Assembly (NCBI GenBank): GCA_001599715.1
Contig: BCHU01000014.1
Coordinates: 186,001-250,000, forward strand
DNA from: Phaeotremella fagi
Taxonomy: Eukaryota > Basidiomycota > Tremellomycetes > Tremellales > Phaeotremellaceae
Length of the DNA stretch: 64,000 nucleotides
Direction: 5' to 3'
The notes beneath the pieces are model-generated. The model had not been told where the DNA came from. It did not search any database and saw only the letters and a program-made list of their open reading frames with translations. Positions 7,809 through 60,442 of this stretch are shown here, in pieces (within the stretch, counting starts at the first letter, position 1; every line of letters begins with the position of its first letter). Made by a program: the position numbers and the translations under genes.

Positions 7809-9281
7809 ATGTCCTGCCACTCTCGCCGCCGAGAGGTCCATGTTCCAGAAGAAATCTGGTCAAGGATCATTGGTTTTTCTATGAACCGCCTTCCGGAAGA
7901 TATGTGGTTATCAACATGGTCACTTTTTCAGCAACACGCATTGACATTGTGGATGACAACAAGTAAAGTAAGTGATGACCGAAAATTGATGAACTGTTAC
8001 TAGACCGTACATCTACCCATACTGATATGCTGCGCATAGAAACACAATCGAATAGCTGGTTCACTCCTTTATCGATCACCTGTTGTTTGTGACTTTACAA
8101 GCTTCCTTGAAGGGTTAGACAAGACTGATGAAGAGCTCAAGGATCGCAAGTCTTTGACCAAAAGACAACTTATCAGCTGTATGGAAAATCTTCATGTGGT
8201 CATTGATTCAAGAGCTACAGAGATCCTTTACTACGATTTAGAAACCAAACACGACGTGTTGTCAATATTAAAAGCTGATGAGAAGGCGTTTAAGTCATTG
8301 AAAGAGAACATGGGGAAATTCACTAGGTTGATCAAGAAGGATCATCAGATTCTGGAGAGTCTCTCAACAGTTTCTGTTTTTCCTAACAAAAGATCTTTAT
8401 TTTTAGCTGAAAGAGAAGTCCGTTTTTGTGGTTGTGATTACAGAGACGTTGGAGATGTTCTTTGCGACATTTGGAACTTTCAAAGTCAAGTTACTGCAAG
8501 CATCTCCGAGTTCATCAACCAGAGTCAACCAAAATCGTTTTGTGCAAAACAATGGAGGCAATCCAGTGTTACTGCAAATCTGATTGGATGTTTAGATCCT
8601 TTTACAACCATTGGAAACTGTTCATCAAATGATCCAGCAACCGTTTTTCATCATCGTGTCTCAGGAAAGGATAGAATGTTTTTTCATCGTCTGTCATTTT
8701 TGGTCCCAGGCAAACGAAACATTTTTTTATTCCCACCATCCAACGAAGAACGTCCAAGATCCGCCCACAATGCACAAGCCTACAAATATCATTTTGATAT
8801 CTTGGAAAGCATTGAAAGGTTCAGCTCACAATTGGCTACGTTTCATGATCAGGACAGACCACCAGGAACTCAAGAAGATTTCAACTTGACAGCTCAAATC
8901 TGTTCAAGAACTACAATTGAATGCTATATTCCCGAGCTAGAACGGTTTAAGGAACATCGAACTTTCAGTCGACTCAATCGAAGGGTTAATAGAGTTCTGT
9001 CAAAATGCACCCCTGAATTAAAGTCAGAACTCATCCTCTATCACGATTGGAAGGAACATCCAATTTGTCCTTGTTGTGAGCATTATGATGATAAGGGAGA
9101 TGATGATGGAAATGATAGTGCAGGAGACAATGAGGGAGTTGATAATGATGGTGAGAGTGATGATGGGAGTGATGATGAGAGTGAGGATGAGAGTGAGGAT
9201 GAGAGTGAGGATGAGAGTGAGGATGAGAGTGAGGATGAGAGTGAGGATGAGAGTGAGAGTGAGAGTGAGAGCGAGGATTAA
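7809..9281 (+). CDS. F-box-like protein with acidic repeat tail
   Basis: Two exons, 7809-7967 and 8040-9281, separated by a 72-nt intron with GTAAGT and ATAG ends, give a 466-residue protein. Residues about 13-50 (VPEEIWSRIIGFSMNRLPED, then a Trp/Leu-rich stretch) look like a degenerate F-box, which would make it a substrate receptor of an SCF ubiquitin ligase. That role is inferred. The middle has no motif I can name. It includes two CxC/CC pairs late in the protein (HPICPCCEHYDD). The last 70 or so residues are almost entirely Asp, Glu, Ser and Gly, built on tandem copies of DESE. Acidic tails of this kind are common in nuclear proteins. It lies between the two RecQ genes, with 450 bp to the convergent Sgs1-type gene. 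Confidence 0.72.
9174..9278 (+). repeat. Coding 12-bp minisatellite (DESE repeat)
   Basis: Seven near-perfect tandem copies of a 12-bp unit (GATGAGAGTGAG) are followed by GAGAGT-type partial copies. They encode the acidic C-terminus of the F-box-like gene. The unit is a multiple of three, so copy-number changes keep the reading frame. Confidence 0.9.
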
Positions 9282-50983: not shown

Positions 50984-52164
50984 ATGTCAGATCTCCCTTT
51001 CACAGTCATCAACGCTTTCGCTACTTCCACCTCCCCACATTCCGGGAATCCAGCTGCGATAGTAGTTCTACCATCTTCAGATCATAAAAACGCAAATAAC
51101 GTAGAATGGTCACAAACCATTGCTAAAGATTTCAACTTATCTGAGACTGCTTATCTGGTTCCGATTGATACAGCAGCTGAAATACCTCTTTACGGTTTAC
51201 GATGGTTTACACCGGTTGATGTGAGTTTCGCGCAACACATCCAGAACGCTCACTGATATCTTACTTTGGGTGCTTATAGGAAGTAGCTCTATGTGGTCAT
51301 GCAACTTTAGCTGCAGCCAGAGTAGCCTTCAATCTCCATCCAACAGCAAAACAAATAAATTTCAAAACTCAACAAGCTGGAATCCTAACTGCAAAACTGA
51401 TTTCATCGTCGACAGTCCCGAATAACAAACCACTAGACATAGCGATCGCCTTACCATCACTTCCATCAAATGTTTTGTCCAAATTTAAAGACGAAGACAG
51501 ATTATCTTCTTTTTTCACGACAGTCCAAAATTCTTTAGATAAGATCTTTGGTGGTTCAGTTAAAGAGGATGATCTTTTGAATGTCGTGGAATTCGGGTTT
51601 GGTAGTAGAAAAAGTGCTTTTGTTGAGTTGAGAGATGGTGTTGATATGGCTGGAATTAGTGTTTCGGCTAGTGAAGTTGTGAGTGATAGATCTAGCTTGT
51701 TCTTAGATGACATAATTGGATACTGATCGTAAAACTTATTTATAGGCGAAAATCGCTACAGGAATGTTCGTCGTGACACAACAAAAGAAACCTATCTCTC
51801 CAAACACACTAGAAATCTCTTCAAGAGTCTTTTGTCCAGGTCTAGGAATAGATGAAGATCCAGTAGTAAGTAGACAACCACCACAGTCTAACATGAATCG
51901 ACACTGAATAAACCGTAGACGGGATCAGCCCACGCTTACCTAGCGGGATATTATCTATTAACCCCAGTATTCAAACGATTGAACCTGTTGTCAACCCCCG
52001 CGAAACACGAGGAAATCGTTATCAAAGCTGTACAGGAGAGTGAAAGACGTGGAGAACTTTTACTTTCTTTACTTGAGGATGAAGAGGATTCGGAGGGTAG
52101 AAGGAAAATTCAATTGATTGGTAAAGCTTGGGAAACTGGGAGTGGCACTTTGACTACGTTTTAG
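50984..52164 (+). CDS. PhzF-family (phenazine biosynthesis-like) isomerase/epimerase
   Basis: This member of the PhzF superfamily has a diaminopimelate-epimerase-like two-domain fold. Four exons are separated by short introns. The start is MSDLPFTVINAFATSTSPHSGNPAAIVVL, which includes the S-G-N-P-A-A motif. The presumed catalytic Glu is in NLSETAYL, and other family motifs are LRWFTPVDEVALCGHATLAAA and, late in the protein, FCPGLGIDEDPVTGSAH. The C-terminus is GTLTTF. Fungal members have no agreed substrate, so no pathway is assigned. No biosynthetic cluster surrounds it. The tRNA-like array begins 209 bp downstream. Confidence 0.9.
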
Positions 52165-52372
52165 AGTGGAGACGTTCAATTAATGACTGTACAAGATTTC
52201 TGAATCCGTTTTTACGCTCAGTGTCGAGATGAGTAAAATCATTTGACTGGTCATGGATACATAAGATTTGTTGCAGAAACGATCAGACTGAAATTTTGCA
52301 ATTAAATCGAAGTGTGTGGCTATTTGCCATGAGGGTTAAATAACCTCGTTGCCTAAAGAAGATATCAAAAAG

Positions 52373-52540
52373 GTCCCGTAGCTTAACGGTCAAAGCGCTC
52401 TTTGTATATCTTTCGCTGTAAGGGCGTGCTAGAGAGTGCGTTGGGGGAATGCTGTTCAACTCCTCGAACGCGCTCCAGCTGTGGCTCAAAGTGATCGCTC
52501 GGTAAAGTGTGATTTCTTGGTTCAACTCCAAGACGGAACG
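52373..52540 (+). ncRNA. tRNA-like RNA gene, array unit 1
   Basis: The 5' strand GTCCCGT pairs with ACGGAAC at the 3' end with one mismatch. A box-A-like TAGCTTAACGG starts at +7 and a box B (GGTTCAACTCC) lies near the 3' end. The inserted arm pairs GAGTGCGTT with AACGCGCTC, nine pairs including one G-U. No oligo-T run follows, so termination here is doubtful. This may be a decayed edge copy. Confidence 0.6.
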
Positions 52541-52602
52541 CGTCCTCAATTGTTTCAATGGTGTGTATGTTCTGTCCTCTGACTTCTTGTCGCGCATCAA
52601 AT

Positions 52603-52746
52603 GTCTTGTAGCTTAACGGTTAGAGCGTTACTGTAACGTCTTTCGTGGTAGCTAATCGGCTCCGTGGCTCAGTGAGCTGATGGAGCCGGACGGTCACACG
52701 ATCGCTCGGTTGGTGGTTATTCTTGGTTCAAGTCCAAGACGAGACA
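52603..52746 (+). ncRNA. tRNA-like RNA gene, array unit 2
   Basis: The acceptor GTCTTGT pairs with ACGAGAC (one G-U). The D arm is GCTT/GAGC and the anticodon stem TTACT/GGTGG pairs through G-U wobbles. The T arm is CTTGG/CCAAG with box B GGTTCAAGTCC. The insert forms CGGCTCC/GGAGCCG with an inner GCTC/GAGC hairpin, and TCGTG pairs with CACGA at its base. A T7 run at 52755 is a good pol III terminator. By canonical numbering the loop could read AAC with U33, but the other copies do not support this. Confidence 0.72.
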
Positions 52747-52809
52747 CGATTAACTTTTTTTCTAGTTGCATGTCTTCCTCTTATTACCCATCCTTCATGT
52801 CTCAAGTGA

Positions 52810-52973
52810 GCTTCGTCAATGGTTTAGAGCGTCATTAGAAAGTTTTTTACTGTAAGTGTGAGTATCGACTTCTTCTTCCTAATTAGGGAGATCATGAGCA
52901 GAACGCTCACTATTCACATCAAAGTGATTACTCGGTTGACGAAGATTCCTTGGTTCAATCCCAGGACGATGCC
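52810..52973 (+). ncRNA. tRNA-like RNA gene, array unit 3 (degenerate)
   Basis: GCTTCGT pairs with ACGATGC with one mismatch, but the AGCT of box A is deleted (GCTTCGTCAATGG). The anticodon stem is disturbed. A T6 run at about 52853-52858 inside the body would stop pol III early, while the usual T-run is still present at about 52978. These defects suggest a decayed copy. Confidence 0.5.
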
Positions 52974-53058
52974 AGTCTTTTTTTATTTACTGTATCACCT
53001 CGTGCTCCCTTCCTTTGACCTCATGTTTCCTTTTCAACACTACCCAACAATCAAACCA

Positions 53059-53197
53059 GCTTCGTAGCTCAATGGTTAGAGCGTTGACCTAAACATCTTT
53101 CGTGGTAGCTGTACTAGCCTTTCAATGCTTGAAAAGCTGGGCAATCACACGATCGCTCGGTTGGTAACGATTCTTGGTTCAATTCCAAGACGAAGCT
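53059..53197 (+). ncRNA. tRNA-like RNA gene, array unit 4
   Basis: The acceptor GCTTCGT/ACGAAGC is perfect. The D arm is GCTC/GAGC with loop AATGGTTA. The anticodon stem TT(G)ACC/GGTAA needs one bulge. The T arm is CTTGG/CCAAG. The insert arm pairs AGCCTTTCAA with TTGAAAAGCT (one mismatch), and TCGTG/CACGA closes it. A T10 terminator follows at 53209. Confidence 0.72.
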
Positions 53198-53291
53198 CTC
53201 ACTATATCTTTTTTTTTTGTAAATTCCTCGTGACCCATTACCTTTGACCTCATGTTTCCTCCCCCAACACCATCCGTCAATCAATCAAACA

Positions 53292-53440
53292 GCTTCGTAG
53301 CTCAATGGTTCAGAGCGTTACCTCGATTTAATTCGTCGTAGAGCGTCTGTAACTAGGATCGCAGAATTGGTGGCTGCGGCGTGCAGGCATTCAAGACGAT
53401 TATTCGGTGAAGAATCTTGGTTCAACTCCAAGACGAAGCT
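53292..53440 (+). ncRNA. tRNA-like RNA gene, array unit 5
   Basis: The acceptor GCTTCGT/ACGAAGC and anticodon stem TTACC/GGTGA pair fully (one G-U). The insert differs from units 2 and 4. It has a GTCTGTA/TGCAGGC helix enclosing CGCAG/CTGCG, and TCGTC/GACGA at the base. The sequence just before the 3' anticodon-stem strand is a few nt shorter than in units 6-8. A T6 run follows at 53452. Confidence 0.7.
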
Positions 53441-53533
53441 CTCATCATTTCTTTTTTGTCTGAATACCTCGTGCCCCATTTCCTTTGACATCATTTGTCC
53501 TCTTCAACACAACACAACACAATAATCAAACAC

Positions 53534-53685
53534 GCTTCGTAGCTCAACGGTTAGAGCGTTACCTCGATGTTAATCGTAGTTGAGCGTCTGTAACTAGGAT
53601 CGCACATATGGGTAGTGCGGCGTGCAGGCGTTCAAGGCGATTACTTGGTAGGTGAAGATTCTTGGTTCAACCCCAAGACGAAGCT
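53534..53685 (+). ncRNA. tRNA-like RNA gene, array unit 6
   Basis: This copy has the acceptor, D, anticodon (TTACC/GGTGA) and T stems of unit 5. The inner arm helix has changed on both sides to CGCAC/GTGCG where units 5, 7 and 8 have CGCAG/CTGCG. That is a clean compensatory change. GTCTGTA/TGCAGGC is kept. A T8 terminator follows at 53698. Confidence 0.72.
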
Positions 53686-54152
53686 TTCCATTATCTCTTT
53701 TTTTTATTACATACCTCGTGATCCCTCGAGGACATAGTGTTTCCTCTTGAACATATATCAATCAATCAAAAAAGCTTCGTAGCTCAATGGTTTAGAGCGT
53801 GACCTCGATATTAATCGTCGTAGGGTGTCTGTAACTAGGATCGCAGGATTGGTCCCTGCGGCGTGCAGGCATTCAAGACGTTTACTTGGTAGGTGAAGAT
53901 TCTTGGTTCAACCCCAAGACGAAGCTTTCCATTATCTCTTTTTTTTATTACATACCTCGTGATCCCTCGAGGACATAGTGTTTCCTCTTGAACATATATC
54001 AATCAATCAAAAAAGCTTCGTAGCTCAATGGTTTAGAGCGTGACCTCGATATTAATCGTCGTAGGGTGTCTGTAACTAGGATCGCAGGATTGGTCCCTGC
54101 GGCGTGCAGGCATTCAAGACGTTTACTTGGTAGGTGAAGATTCTTGGTTCAA
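53641..54152. repeat. Perfect tandem duplication, 241-bp period
   Basis: About 271 nt starting at 53641 recur at 53882 with a constant offset of 241 and no difference that I could see. They cover the end of unit 6, the spacer, unit 7, the next spacer and most of unit 8. This is a very recent duplication of one array unit. Confidence 0.9.
53774..53926 (+). ncRNA. tRNA-like RNA gene, array unit 7
   Basis: Acceptor GCTTCGT/ACGAAGC, arm helices GTCTGTA/TGCAGGC and CGCAG/CTGCG, and T arm CTTGG/CCAAG are all intact. The anticodon stem TGACC/GGTGA has one mismatch. It is identical to unit 8 up to the T loop. A T8 terminator follows at 53939. Confidence 0.72.
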
Positions 54153-54167
54153 TTCCATGACGAAGCT
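54015..54167 (+). ncRNA. tRNA-like RNA gene, array unit 8
   Basis: This is a recent duplicate of unit 7. It differs only at the 3' end, where the T stem reads CCATG instead of CCAAG and loses one pair. A T5 run follows at about 54178. Confidence 0.68.
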
Positions 54168-54242
54168 TCTAACAATGTTTTTAATGTTCTGTTACTGCCC
54201 TTGGATATGATTTCCATTTCAGCGGTGGTTATAACGAAATAT

Positions 54243-54453
54243 GCTCTATAGCTTAACGGTTTAAAGCGTCATCAAAATATCTTTCGTAGTAGGTGCTACT
54301 TGCTATCTCAAGCTTTTCTGCATAGCGGTTGCGTCCTATATTGCGATTGTAATGTAATACGTGGGCGCTATGCAGAGACCCTTGGGGTACGGGCTGGTAT
54401 TCATACGATCGCTCGGTTGGTGATGATTCTTGGTTCAAGTCCAAGATAGGGCA
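54243..54453 (+). ncRNA. tRNA-like RNA gene, array unit 9 (longest insert)
   Basis: GCTCTAT pairs with ATAGGGC (one G-U), so both acceptor strands have changed relative to the other copies while pairing is kept. The D arm is GCTT/AAGC and the anticodon stem TCATC/GGTGA is paired. The insert holds an 11-bp perfect helix TCTGCATAGCG/CGCTATGCAGA and the basal helix TCGTA/TACGA. A T7 terminator follows at 54462. At 211 nt it is the longest unit. Confidence 0.7.
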
Positions 54454-54468
54454 ATTGATTGTTTTTTT

Positions 54469-56582: not shown

Positions 56583-59500
56583 ATGCTCAGACAAATAGGT
56601 CGTCTCAGACGATCACCATTATTGTCCAATTCCAGACCATCTTCAATAACCAACCCCAACCATCGTGTGCCGTTAACTATCCCATCAAGAAATGTCCACG
56701 TTAGAGCGATATCATTCTCGACTGTTCCAAGGATGATGGCTCGGGCTTTTAGGGTTCCCCTTTATGGTGCTGCTATTGGAGCTGGTGGATTAGGTTATGC
56801 GAATTATAAACTTGAAGGTGTGTTTTATGACTGTGTCTGGTTGAAGGTACTGATCTAGGATGTAGGAGTTCGAAATGCAACTTCGGAAATATTGGGGAAT
56901 GTATCTGATACGTTATCTTCGGCTTACAACTCCACTTCTTCGACCATTGCTTCAACTCTTTCAACCGCTTCTGATATCTCTGAATCGTTATCGTCACAGA
57001 TAGCATCTTCAATCTCAGGAACCGCGAAAACAGCACAAGATTCTGCGGAAGCGTTCAGAAACGGTACTGCTGAATGGTGGCAAGCGGTGTCTGAAAATTT
57101 AGGTTGGACTGGTGAAACCAAATCTTCTTCTTCTACAGTCAACACTTCCGTGGGTAACGAATCGAAATGGAGACCAGGTGAAGGTCCTGGGGAACCTACA
57201 CCTCCACCACCGTCATCTTCTGGTGGTGGAGAAGCGATGTTAGGATTAGCTGGTGCGATGTACGCGGCTGGGAATGACGAGGAGAAATCACCTTCAGATC
57301 CTTTCTCTTCTGGAACTGGACAGGAACATCAGTTGTTGCAACTCACCAAGAAATTGATCGAAATCAGATCGGTTTTACTTAGTGTCGATCAAAGTGATGC
57401 TTTGAAATTGCCTTCCATCGTCGTTATCGGTAGTCAAAGTTCGGGGAAGAGTAGTGTTTTAGAAGCTATCGTTGGACATGAGTTTTTACCCAAGTAGGTG
57501 TTTCGTATCGAAATTTGATCAACCTACTAATTATCATAGGGGTGATAACATGGTGACTCGTCGACCTATAGAGTTAACACTCATTCACTCTCCGATCCCA
57601 TCAGCCAGCACCTCAACCGCTCCAACTGAATATGGAGTCTTCCCCGATATGCCCCATCTAGGCAAAGTCACGTCTTTCCAATCTATTCAGAAAACACTCA
57701 CCGAACTCAATCTGGCTGTCCCATCGAATATCGCAGTTACAGATGAACCAATTCATCTCCAAATCCATTCACCCCATGTCCCAGATCTTACTCTAATCGA
57801 TCTACCTGGTTATGTCCAGATCGCCTCGATGGATCAACCTGAAACGCTGAAAGAACAGATTTCCAATCTGTGTGATAAATATATTAGAGAACCTAATATT
57901 ATTTTGGCGGTTTGCGCTGCTGATGTCGACCTTGCTAATAGTCCAGCTTTGAGAGCGAGTCGTCGAGTCGATCCACTTGGTTCTAGAACTATTGGGGTGG
58001 TAACTAAAATGGATCTCGTGAGACCCGAATTAGGAGCGGAGATCATCAAGGGAAACAGATACCCTCTTCATCTAGGCTATGTTGGTGTAGTTTGTAAAGC
58101 TCCACCTGCAGTCTCTTCAGGTGGATTAATAAGATCAATCACAGGTGGTGATAAAGAACGTCCTAACGTTACCGATGCTGTACTTAAACGTGAAGAAGAG
58201 TTTTTCGGTGGTGAGAACGCTAGATATTTCGGTAAAAATCGTGTTGTCGGTGAAAAGAAACTTTTGGTGGGGATTGATACACTCAGAAGAAGGTTGATGG
58301 ATGTGCTGGAAACTTCAATGGCAGCTTCTTTGCATGGTATCACTAATGCTGTTCAACTTGAACTTGAAGAAGCGAGTTATCAGTTCAAGGTGAGTAATGG
58401 GTTTGTTCATTTGATTAATCATTCTAGGTACAATATAACGACCGTCGAATTACTTCCGAATCATATGTCGCTGAAACTGTTGACGCTTTGAAAGCACGTT
58501 TCAAAGAATATACCTCACAATTTACTAAACCTGCTGTTCGAGAGAAATTGAAGAACATGCTTGACGATAAAGTTATGGATATCCTTGAACAATTATATTG
58601 GAACGATGGACGTACAGTCGAATTATCGAAATTAGGGGAGGATCGAAAACTTTCACCTGAAGAATTGGATTCGTACTGGAAATATAAACTCGAAACAGCT
58701 TCTTCACTACTCACGAAATCTGGGGTTGGTAGAGACTCCACTTATCTTGTGGCAGATGGTCTACGAGGGTTGATAGATTCGATAGCGACAGGTGAACCAT
58801 TCACCTATCATCCATCCGCGTCTCAACGAATAGTTGATTTCTCACATGCAATCCTGAGAGAAAGGATGGGTATAACAGCGGATCAAGTTGAGAACTGTAT
58901 CAAACCTTTCAAATACGAAGTCGAAGTTGATAATCGAGAATGGGCTCTCGGTAGAGAGAAAGCTGAAGAGAAATTCAATCAAGAACTGGTTAGATGTCAG
59001 CAGAAACTTGGTGAGATCGGGGTTAGGGTTGGTGGGAATCGTCGATTGGGGGGGTTGATCAGGCATGTGGCTGAATTGGAGAAATGGGAGGATGATAGAC
59101 GGAAACGAAGGGTTGGTAATTTGGGAGGTGGAACTACTGAGGAGAGTGAGAATGATATCGCGGAAGAAGGTGCTCCAGTCTTGGATGCTTATAAATATTC
59201 TCCTGCTCAGATCGTCGATGGTAAGTCATGTGTTCTTGTTTAACCTAAGATCATACTGACAAACATCTTAGGTCGACATGCACTTCTCTTATCTAATCGA
59301 TTGACTTTACTCAAACTCCGTCAACAAGCTCTTAAATCCAAGAGATGCAAATTAGGTCCTGAACAGGCTGCTTTCTGTCCTGAAGCCTTTTTGGCCGTTG
59401 TAGCTGATAAATTGGCTTACACGAGTACGATGTTTATCAATATTGAGTTGTTGGAACAATTCTTTTATCAGGTGGGTGTTCTTTTACAAACGATCATACT

Positions 59501-60353: not shown

Positions 60354-60442
60354 GCCTCTGTGGCGTAGCGGTTAACGCTTTCGCTTCGTACACCTTAAGC
60401 GAAGGAAGCGAAGGATCCTGTGTTCAATCCACAGCTGAGGCA
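60354..60442 (+). tRNA. tRNA-Thr (anticodon CGU) with a 16-nt intron
   Basis: The cloverleaf reads acceptor GCCTCTG/CTGAGGC (one T-T mismatch), D arm GCGT/ACGC with loop AGCGGTTA, anticodon stem TTCGC/GCGAA and T arm CTGTG/CACAG with loop TTCAATC. The anticodon loop gives U32 U33 CGU A37. The 16-nt intron (60391-60406) sits at the canonical site just 3' of base 37. The discriminator is A, and a T6 pol III terminator begins at 60445. Box B reads TGTTCAATCC. The acceptor mismatch slightly lowers confidence that it is active. Confidence 0.85.

Follow-up and report, generated by a model that had tools for sequence, protein, structure and literature searches.

A family of tRNA-like units with long anticodon-loop inserts in Phaeotremella fagi and its possible derivation from a tRNA gene

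The TMER genes of murine gammaherpesvirus 68 are tandem RNA polymerase III (pol III) genes for transfer RNA (tRNA)-like molecules, joined to hairpins 3′ of the tRNA. Altered acceptor/D geometry is displayed by tRNA-Sec, tRNA-Pyl and the mitochondrial tRNA-Ser types; tRNA-Sec has a 13-bp acceptor plus T stack, a long D stem and a UCA anticodon. Here a 64,000-nt stretch of the Phaeotremella fagi genome (GenBank assembly GCA_001599715.1, contig BCHU01000014.1, positions 186,001–250,000 of the forward strand), termed the window, is analyzed. It contains nine tandem tRNA-like units with a large insert in the anticodon loop. Together with three units on a different contig these form a family of at least 12 members in two clusters. 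The family appears to be of pol III type and derived from a tRNA gene, and its product may be a non-decoding RNA of tRNA shape, a reading that from the sequences has a little under an even chance.

The units resemble the TMER genes in being tandem pol III tRNA-like units with structured payloads, but the insert is located in the anticodon loop and the genome is fungal. They share with the tRNA-Sec, tRNA-Pyl and mitochondrial tRNA-Ser types either a longer acceptor-T stack or a single-nucleotide linker between acceptor and D stem. They differ from these types in that the D stem has the usual 4 bp, neither UCA nor CUA is read as an anticodon in the registers tried, and the insert is large.

Nuclear tRNA genes with a canonical intron at 37/38 provide a further comparison. 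In the portion of PMC4090602 drawn on here, eukaryotic tRNA introns are quoted as 6–133 nt, and in Cryptococcus neoformans, a tremellomycete, 132 of 143 tRNA genes have introns. Like such genes, the family displays cloverleaf helices, box A and box B, a terminator and extra sequence in the anticodon loop, and it lies in a genome with an intron-rich tRNA gene set. Unlike them, it has no register that gives U33 with purine 37 in more than one of 12 units, it has an extra A or an 8-bp acceptor, its inserts reach 257 nt, the acceptors differ by copy, and the units are arranged in tandem. A first-pass annotation, made from the letters of the window alone, had held that nuclear tRNA introns are usually far shorter than these inserts. 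Within this genome that is correct, as the introns called overall are 8–42 nt with one exception of 103 nt (locus L104), but it does not hold generally: once 7 nt are deducted for the loop, the inserts of the array measure 66–138 nt, and eight of the nine fall inside the range quoted in that portion of PMC4090602. The same portion names non-canonical eukaryotic nuclear tRNA introns from nucleomorphs and a red alga. If the family is spliced, its intron would resemble those of nucleomorph and Cyanidioschyzon merolae tRNAs in lying 5′ of the anticodon at a non-canonical site; however the Guillardia non-canonical introns given there are 3–24 nt long, and no bulge-helix-bulge could be drawn by eye in the family. 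No account of such an array was found in a search of the open-licence literature, which covered titles and abstract openings among the matches listed.

Organization of the array and the second cluster

All nine units that had been reported on one strand are present, on the plus strand at window positions 52372–54454 (Table 1). Their starts are 202–254 bp apart on our boundaries, in place of the 207–249 bp that had been given. A detector written for this work, which searches for acceptor, D, anticodon and T pairing at array-like settings, finds eight of the nine on the plus strand, none on the minus strand and none in 20 one-strand dinucleotide shuffles; a chance origin is thus excluded. The unit that it missed, u3, has a shortened D arm. 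The second cluster, on contig C2, consists of three plus strand units (c2u1, c2u2 and c2u3).

The promoter elements and terminators that had been described are also found. By sequence only, a box A/D-arm element resembling TAGCTYAAYGGTTAGAGCG and a box B/T-arm element resembling CTTGGTTCAANNCCAAGA are recognized in 9/9 array units, and similar elements in 3/3 C2 units. A run of T5 or longer begins within 20 nt downstream in eight of the nine array units and in 11 of 12 family members; as background, the same holds, at a distance of up to 30 nt, for 4.7% of plus strand positions in the window.

ARAGORN at its defaults calls no tRNA anywhere in the window and misses all nine copies; once introns as long as 350 nt are permitted, 11 of the 12 units are called, under seven isotypes (Asp, Val, Ala, Ile, Pro, Gly, Glu). 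The cut-off of the Rfam tRNA model RF00005 is passed by one of nine array units (u4, 32.5 bits) and by none of the three C2 units. Over the whole window Rfam at its own cut-offs gives two tRNA matches and nothing else. Small nucleolar RNA (snoRNA), signal recognition particle (SRP) RNA and other known RNA content were considered and rejected: at E-values up to 10 the array and the C2 cluster give weak matches far below cut-off, u4 excepted. There is no tRNA-Sec match in the Rfam scans of the window, the array and the C2 cluster.

A model (R1) was built from an alignment (A3) of nine of the 12 units, where u3, u5 and u8 were left out, the insert middles were removed and the structure was written by hand. 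R1 splits u9, c2u2 and c2u3; in u9, although a training member, the 3′ part alone is matched. R1 recovers u5 and u3, which lie outside the training set, as does u8, a near copy of u7 (Table 1). Two ordinary tRNAs reach 38–39 bits with R1, and the score of u3 is hardly above these; u3 is therefore a weak family member.

Genome-wide, the T arm at up to two mismatches is found at 39 places (29 in a reversed control), i.e. nine in the array, two at approximately 770.8–771.6 kb of contig C2 and 28 elsewhere, and the unit architecture is absent from the 19 loci examined among those 28. Box A at up to three mismatches occurs at 15 places (seven in the control), of which four are in the array, three in C2, five of tRNA-Lys type and three without a visible tRNA. 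A sequence pattern, GTAGCTYAAYGGTTAGAGCG, was drawn up for finding family members. A 5′-half pattern gave no matches in viral contigs, a search that says little for a fungus.

The inserts share short motifs (Table 1). AUCUUUCGUGGUAG at up to two mismatches has seven matches in the window where 2.2 are expected, and four of the seven are inside units. Exact copies of the insert motif ACGATCGCTCGGTTGGT number three in the genome, all in the array, and two more places match at two mismatches (four in the control). Units u7 and u8 do not differ anywhere in the 5′ part or the insert, their divergence being confined to the sequence past the T loop, and the spacers that follow u6 and u7 share 86 identical bases. 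The pair u7/u8 looks as a recent tandem duplication would leave it. In the C2 cluster, the insert of c2u2 contains a 16-bp minisatellite, GTTCGTGTCCTGGTTA, of 8.0 copies (locus L064, 5419–5547). The stretch ahead of this minisatellite resembles a T arm (CTTGGTTCGTTCCCTGG), and CCTGG-type pieces are scattered through the c2u3 insert.

Table 1. Coordinates of the family members, their elements and other features. Positions are those of the window unless a locus or contig is given; insert lengths are distances between the anticodon-stem strands, except for L104 and L015.
Feature	Position	Strand	Insert (length, nt)	Downstream oligo-T	R1 (bits)	Remarks
u1	52372–52541	+	52403–52504 (102)	none within 40 nt	81.2	tRNA-like
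u2	52602–52747	+	52633–52711 (79)	T7, 52755–52761	89.5	
u3	52804–52975	+	52837–52937 (101)	T7, 52978–52984	44.0	degenerate: short D arm, internal T6; outside R1 training set
u4	53058–53198	+	53090–53162 (73)	T10, 53209–53218	94.2	sole unit above Rfam tRNA cut-off
u5	53291–53441	+	53323–53405 (83)	T6, 53452–53457	69.7	3′ heptamer region 4 nt shorter than in u6–u8; outside R1 training set
u6	53533–53686	+	53564–53650 (87)	T8, 53698–53705	90.2	
u7	53773–53927	+	53805–53891 (87)	T8, 53939–53946	90.5	
u8	54014–54168	+	54046–54132 (87)	T5, 54178–54182	87.2	one T-stem mismatch; outside R1 training set
u9	54242–54454	+	54274–54418 (145)	T7, 54462–54468	34.8	longest insert of the array, a long hairpin almost unbroken
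u4 box A/D-arm region TAGCTCAATGGTTAGAGCG	53065–53083	+				similar element in each of nine units
u4 box B/T arm CTTGGTTCAATTCCAAGA	53173–53190	+				similar element in each of nine units
5′ insert motif AUCUUUCGUGGUAG in u4	53095–53108	+				exact at 54279–54292; one mismatch at 52638–52651; two at 52408–52421
3′ insert motif ACGAUCGCUCGGUUGGU in u4	53149–53165	+				identical in u2 (52698–52714) and u9 (54405–54421)
c2u1	L064 4780	+	(48)	T5		
c2u2	L064 5358	+	(220)	T6		
c2u3	L064 6263	+	(257)	T8		
PhzF-like ORF fragment	50984–51253					PF02567
Dynamin-like gene piece	57472–58488					PF00350; further downstream
L104, tRNA-Gln-like, 176 nt	G000:C3 ~526.1–526.3 kb, locus 260–435	reverse	(103, by ARAGORN)	T4 only		
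L015, tRNA-Ala(UGC) by ARAGORN	G000:C9:609206–609299		(22-nt intron)			D arm TCTAGTGGTATGATT

Secondary structure and the anticodon loop

It had been reported that only one nucleotide links the acceptor and the D stem. This fits 10 of the 11 scorable units (u3 is not scorable for acceptor geometry), where U8 pairs with an extra A to give an 8-bp acceptor, a 1-nt linker and 6 or 7 acceptor pairs; but an alternative drawing with one extra A between the T stem and the acceptor, and 5–7 pairs, is nearly as good. The canonical geometry, i.e. a U8 N9 linker and a 7-bp acceptor joined to the T stem, is displayed by c2u2 alone. The acceptor stems show seven distinct sequences among the 11 units and are paired at 6 or 7 of 7 positions. 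Position 73 is G, A or T and never C in the 1-nt-linker drawing; with the 8-bp drawing some units have C there and others T or A.

In alignment A3, 88.5% of cells are paired against 34–47% for slid partners, a comparison that favors the proposed structure since this was drawn on the same sequences as were counted. Two-sided changes are found at 19 of 29 pairs (37 cells), with a covariation score of 0.434 where shuffles give 0.254. None of 500 shuffles reaches the A3 values for paired cells, changed pairs, changed cells or covariation score; the number of pair types is matched by 16 of the 500. By helix, the D and T stems are paired in 100% of cells, the anticodon stem in 90.7% and the acceptor in 84.7%. 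The anticodon stem with one extra pair has two-sided changes at 6/6 positions, and the acceptor at 7/8. As the constraint expected from box A and box B is limited to the D and T arms, covariation in the acceptor and anticodon stem argues for selection at the RNA level, and the tRNA-like RNA structure is judged from these substitutions to be under selection now or to have been so until recently. RNAalifold, with no structure supplied (u1, u2, u4 and u9), recovers the four tRNA helices (acceptor, D, anticodon and T) together with the insert-base helix; 14 of the 30 pairs show two-sided changes, and the covariation term is –5.25.

Single-sequence folding is more variable. The fold energy is below that of shuffles for all nine array units, with z values that range from –1.27 (u1) to –7.0 (u9); z is –4.2 for c2u1 and –3.9 for both u2 and u6. 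In unconstrained single folds, viewed by eye, the four tRNA helices are found together only in u6 and u7, and at least one helix is replaced elsewhere. Insert helices were judged from free folds of the insert.

The base of the insert is partly conserved. In nine of the 12 units, as drawn by eye, the anticodon stem is separated from the next helix by 10 nt on either strand, and in those same nine the 3′ strand reads CUNGGUW. The 5′ strand has AUCUU in u1, u4, u9 and c2u2 and GUCUU in u2, while the five bases before it vary. The last seven bases on the 3′ side are CUCGGUU, CUCGGUA, CUUGGUA or CCAGGAU in 10 units; the c2u1 heptamer is ambiguous, as a one-base shift gives AGG or GGA.

No uniform anticodon with U33 can be read from these bases, as had been noted. 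Each 7-nt loop of k bases from the 5′ side and 7–k from the 3′ side was enumerated (eight registers), and in every one U33 and purine 37 occur together in at most one of the 12 units; 8-nt loops are no better. With the same script, 30 of 32 ordinary tRNA genes of the genome called by ARAGORN have U33 with purine 37, and the two misses are Leu calls on two copies read as tRNA-Gly(GCC). At k = 0 or 1, U33 is present in 10/12 (including u5, whose loop reads UAU; c2u3 has C33 and c2u1 A33) and purine 37 in 2/12 (A in c2u3, G in c2u1). At k = 6, the canonical 37/38 site, the reverse is found, with purine 37 in 11/12 and U33 in 1/12. As no register combines the two features in more than one unit, a decoding tRNA is unlikely on any register. 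No bulge-helix-bulge with a 4-bp central helix could be drawn by hand in most units for registers at 31/32, 32/33, 33/34 or 37/38. UCA is in none of the 7-nt registers; the D stem was modelled at 4 bp, and an 8+5 bp stack is possible.

Interpretation of the family

Of the two interpretations that the first-pass annotation had offered, a new tRNA-derived RNA class is the better half, given pairing that is kept through changes and the lack of a decoding loop. The other, a dispersed-anticodon tRNA family with introns, is not supported: splicing at 37/38 would give eight anticodons (UAU, AAC, AAA, GAU, AAU, CGG, AGA and CCC) with U33 in one unit of 12. No one known isotype with a canonical intron accounts for all copies.

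Several findings weigh against a tRNA-shaped, non-decoding RNA, in addition to the way in which the A3 structure was drawn. The insert-base helix is paired in only 74.1% of A3 cells. The insert hairpin of u5–u8 shows two-sided changes at four of 51 pairs, two of which are broken in another copy, and its covariation term of +0.38 gives no net support; the fold z is near the shuffles for c2u2 (–0.96) and u1. Insert identity is 42–57% in 29 of the 36 array pairs, about the level of unrelated spacers (the other pairs are u2/u4 at 70% and the six u5–u8 pairs at 82–100%). Between u4 and u5–u8 the insert identity of 51–56% is mostly below that of the spacers of the same pairs (52–74%), and the 5′ part is 91–94% and the 3′ part 86–89% identical; the body of the insert thus turns over at least as fast as the spacer, unlike the tRNA-like ends. 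Four of the nine copies have defects, namely the terminator of u1, the degenerate u3, the heptamer of u5 and the T-stem mismatch of u8. At k = 0 or 1 the loop gives NGG (G35 G36, with a varying wobble base 34) in 10/12, which is proline-like and has no ready explanation in an RNA that never decodes. Finally, L104, a gene unrelated to the family, also has a long insert and a lost anticodon.

A more specific form of the non-decoding RNA is possible although somewhat doubtful: an undescribed fungal class of pol III RNA in which the tRNA body would serve as promoter, processing signal and scaffold, the anticodon loop would have become a two-strand recognition loop with a freely evolving arm, and the family would have expanded as a tandem array. 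In the non-decoding reading as such, each unit would be transcribed singly by pol III, its ends would be trimmed by RNase P and RNase Z as for a tRNA, and the tRNA fold would protect the RNA. The base of the insert may be a recognition site for a protein or RNA partner, with the tip, either a minisatellite or a hairpin without fixed length, as a spacer. New copies would come from tandem duplication, as in u7/u8, and their later divergence would include compensatory changes in the stems. Retention and removal of the insert are about equally likely; retention is slightly preferred, since splicing in any register leaves the anticodon loop unusable. The locus illustrates the extent to which a tremellomycete anticodon loop can be altered with compensatory changes maintained in the rest of the fold. 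Expression without splicing would make it a natural case of a tRNA scaffold that carries a new RNA, and splicing would make it a nuclear family of tRNA-like genes whose large introns lie 5′ of the anticodon.

The units may instead be tandem duplicates of a tRNA gene whose intron has expanded, now decaying or neutral; box A and box B would sustain transcription, and the apparent structure would be a remnant of recent duplication. This is unlikely, but it accommodates much of what has just been listed: the identity of u7 and u8 in the 5′ part and whole insert, the defects in u1, u3, u5 and u8, the divergence of inserts as fast as or faster than that of spacers, the unconstrained insert length with a minisatellite in c2u2, the lack of a usable anticodon loop, and the second long-insert gene of tRNA-Gln type. 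As long inserts are not confined to the family, intron expansion or decay is somewhat favored by L104. However, decay agrees poorly with the seven acceptor sequences that remain paired among 11 units and with an extended anticodon stem in which each of the six pairs has changed on both sides, both of which call for RNA selection, and with the retention of terminators in 11/12.

A less probable alternative is that the units are genes for a tRNA-Pro-like molecule, split by an intron at the non-canonical site 31/32 or 32/33. The loop would be supplied from the 3′ side (CGG, UGG or AGG), and eukaryotic prolyl-tRNA synthetase (ProRS), for which G35 G36 are the main bases read, would tolerate the variable acceptors. 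This would explain NGG and U33, each in 10/12, and the first five insert bases, which are unconserved and intron-like. ARAGORN with long introns calls Pro for u6–u9 (four of the 11 called), and it calls Pro for nine of the 12 copies submitted after virtual splicing 5′ of the anticodon. The determinants given in the portion of PMC9976931 used here for eukaryotic tRNA-Pro are C73, G35 and G36, with human identity mainly in the anticodon branch, which suits conserved G35 G36. But position 37 is non-purine in 10/12, so that the G37 of the genome's canonical tRNA-Pro(AGG) and tRNA-Pro(CGG) genes is not kept, and the existence of those genes elsewhere counts against the proposal as well. Position 73 is not uniform, c2u3 and c2u1 have C33 and A33, and in the portion of PMC4090602 cited above the sole sources given for non-canonical nuclear introns are nucleomorphs and a red alga.

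It is very improbable that the units are tRNA-scaffolded hairpins whose inserts are cut to small RNAs with a payload that differs by copy, as in the tRNA-microRNA (tRNA-miRNA) chimeras of a rodent gammaherpesvirus: the near-continuous u9 hairpin, the low z values of u9, c2u1, u2 and u6 and the unlike payload sequences of most copies fit such a product, but the folds of c2u2 and u1 barely surpass those of shuffles, the helices are mostly short or broken, and the payload of u7 recurs unchanged in u8. That the units are ordinary tRNA genes of different isotypes, each with a long intron at 37/38, is scarcely credible, for although 24 of the 29 ordinary tRNA genes called carry introns and purine 37 is found in 11/12 at that register, U33 in one unit and eight anticodons over 12 related copies do not accord with them.

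Other loci in the window and the genome

The genome is 22.6 Mb in 24 contigs. An acetylglutamate-synthase-like protein encoded in the window has a best match of 63% identity, and its nearest named relatives are mostly Tremellales (Saitozyma, Naematelia, Dioszegia and Kwoniella) at 52–59%, which supports the guess of a tremellomycete in the first-pass annotation; a second protein query yielded no relative. Among 30 loci examined of 32 Rfam tRNA matches in the genome, ARAGORN called 29, and the 24 with introns have introns of 8–32 nt. The window itself has an ordinary intron-containing tRNA-Thr(CGU) gene at 60354–60442, which ARAGORN missed at its defaults.

A box B census gave 115 matches, and 40 loci among the 100 listed were examined. 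ARAGORN called three of these (L103 as Leu, L114 as Gly, and L104), and our detector found two of the three. The ends of L104 align with the genome's tRNA-Gln(CUG) gene L017 (isotype by eye); by eye no UUG or CUG loop is readable in L104.

The CUNGGUW heptamer had raised the possibility that tRNA-Pro is encoded in this genome solely by the units, which was ruled out by two canonical genes. A pattern search gave tRNA-Pro(AGG) at C5:1099240, with loop UUAGGG, and tRNA-Pro(CGG) is at C14:163177, with loop UUCGGG and the match shown to 80 letters; both were read by eye and have an insert after G37. As canonical genes exist for both, the units are not needed for the AGG and CGG isoacceptors. The first version of a eukaryotic tRNA-Pro box A pattern had no match in the genome, and there is no second copy of the tRNA-Pro(AGG) 5′ part at up to three mismatches in 25. 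A second version matched 16 places, of which the best is L015; five of the other 15 were examined and have no tRNA. The D arm of L015 is that of eukaryotic tRNA-Pro.

tRNA-Lys-like 5′ halves, TAGCTCAATCGGTAGAGC, lie near a similar CACGGARAATTGCGG stretch at four loci (L074, L075, L081 and L082, at G000:C12 396086, 396144 and 441796 and at C19 4100), two of them 58 bp apart. These are perhaps a tRNA-derived repeat family. In the window, a 12-bp tandem repeat, TGAGAGTGAGGA, of 9.8 copies is located at 9152–9269 within an open reading frame of 375 amino acids.

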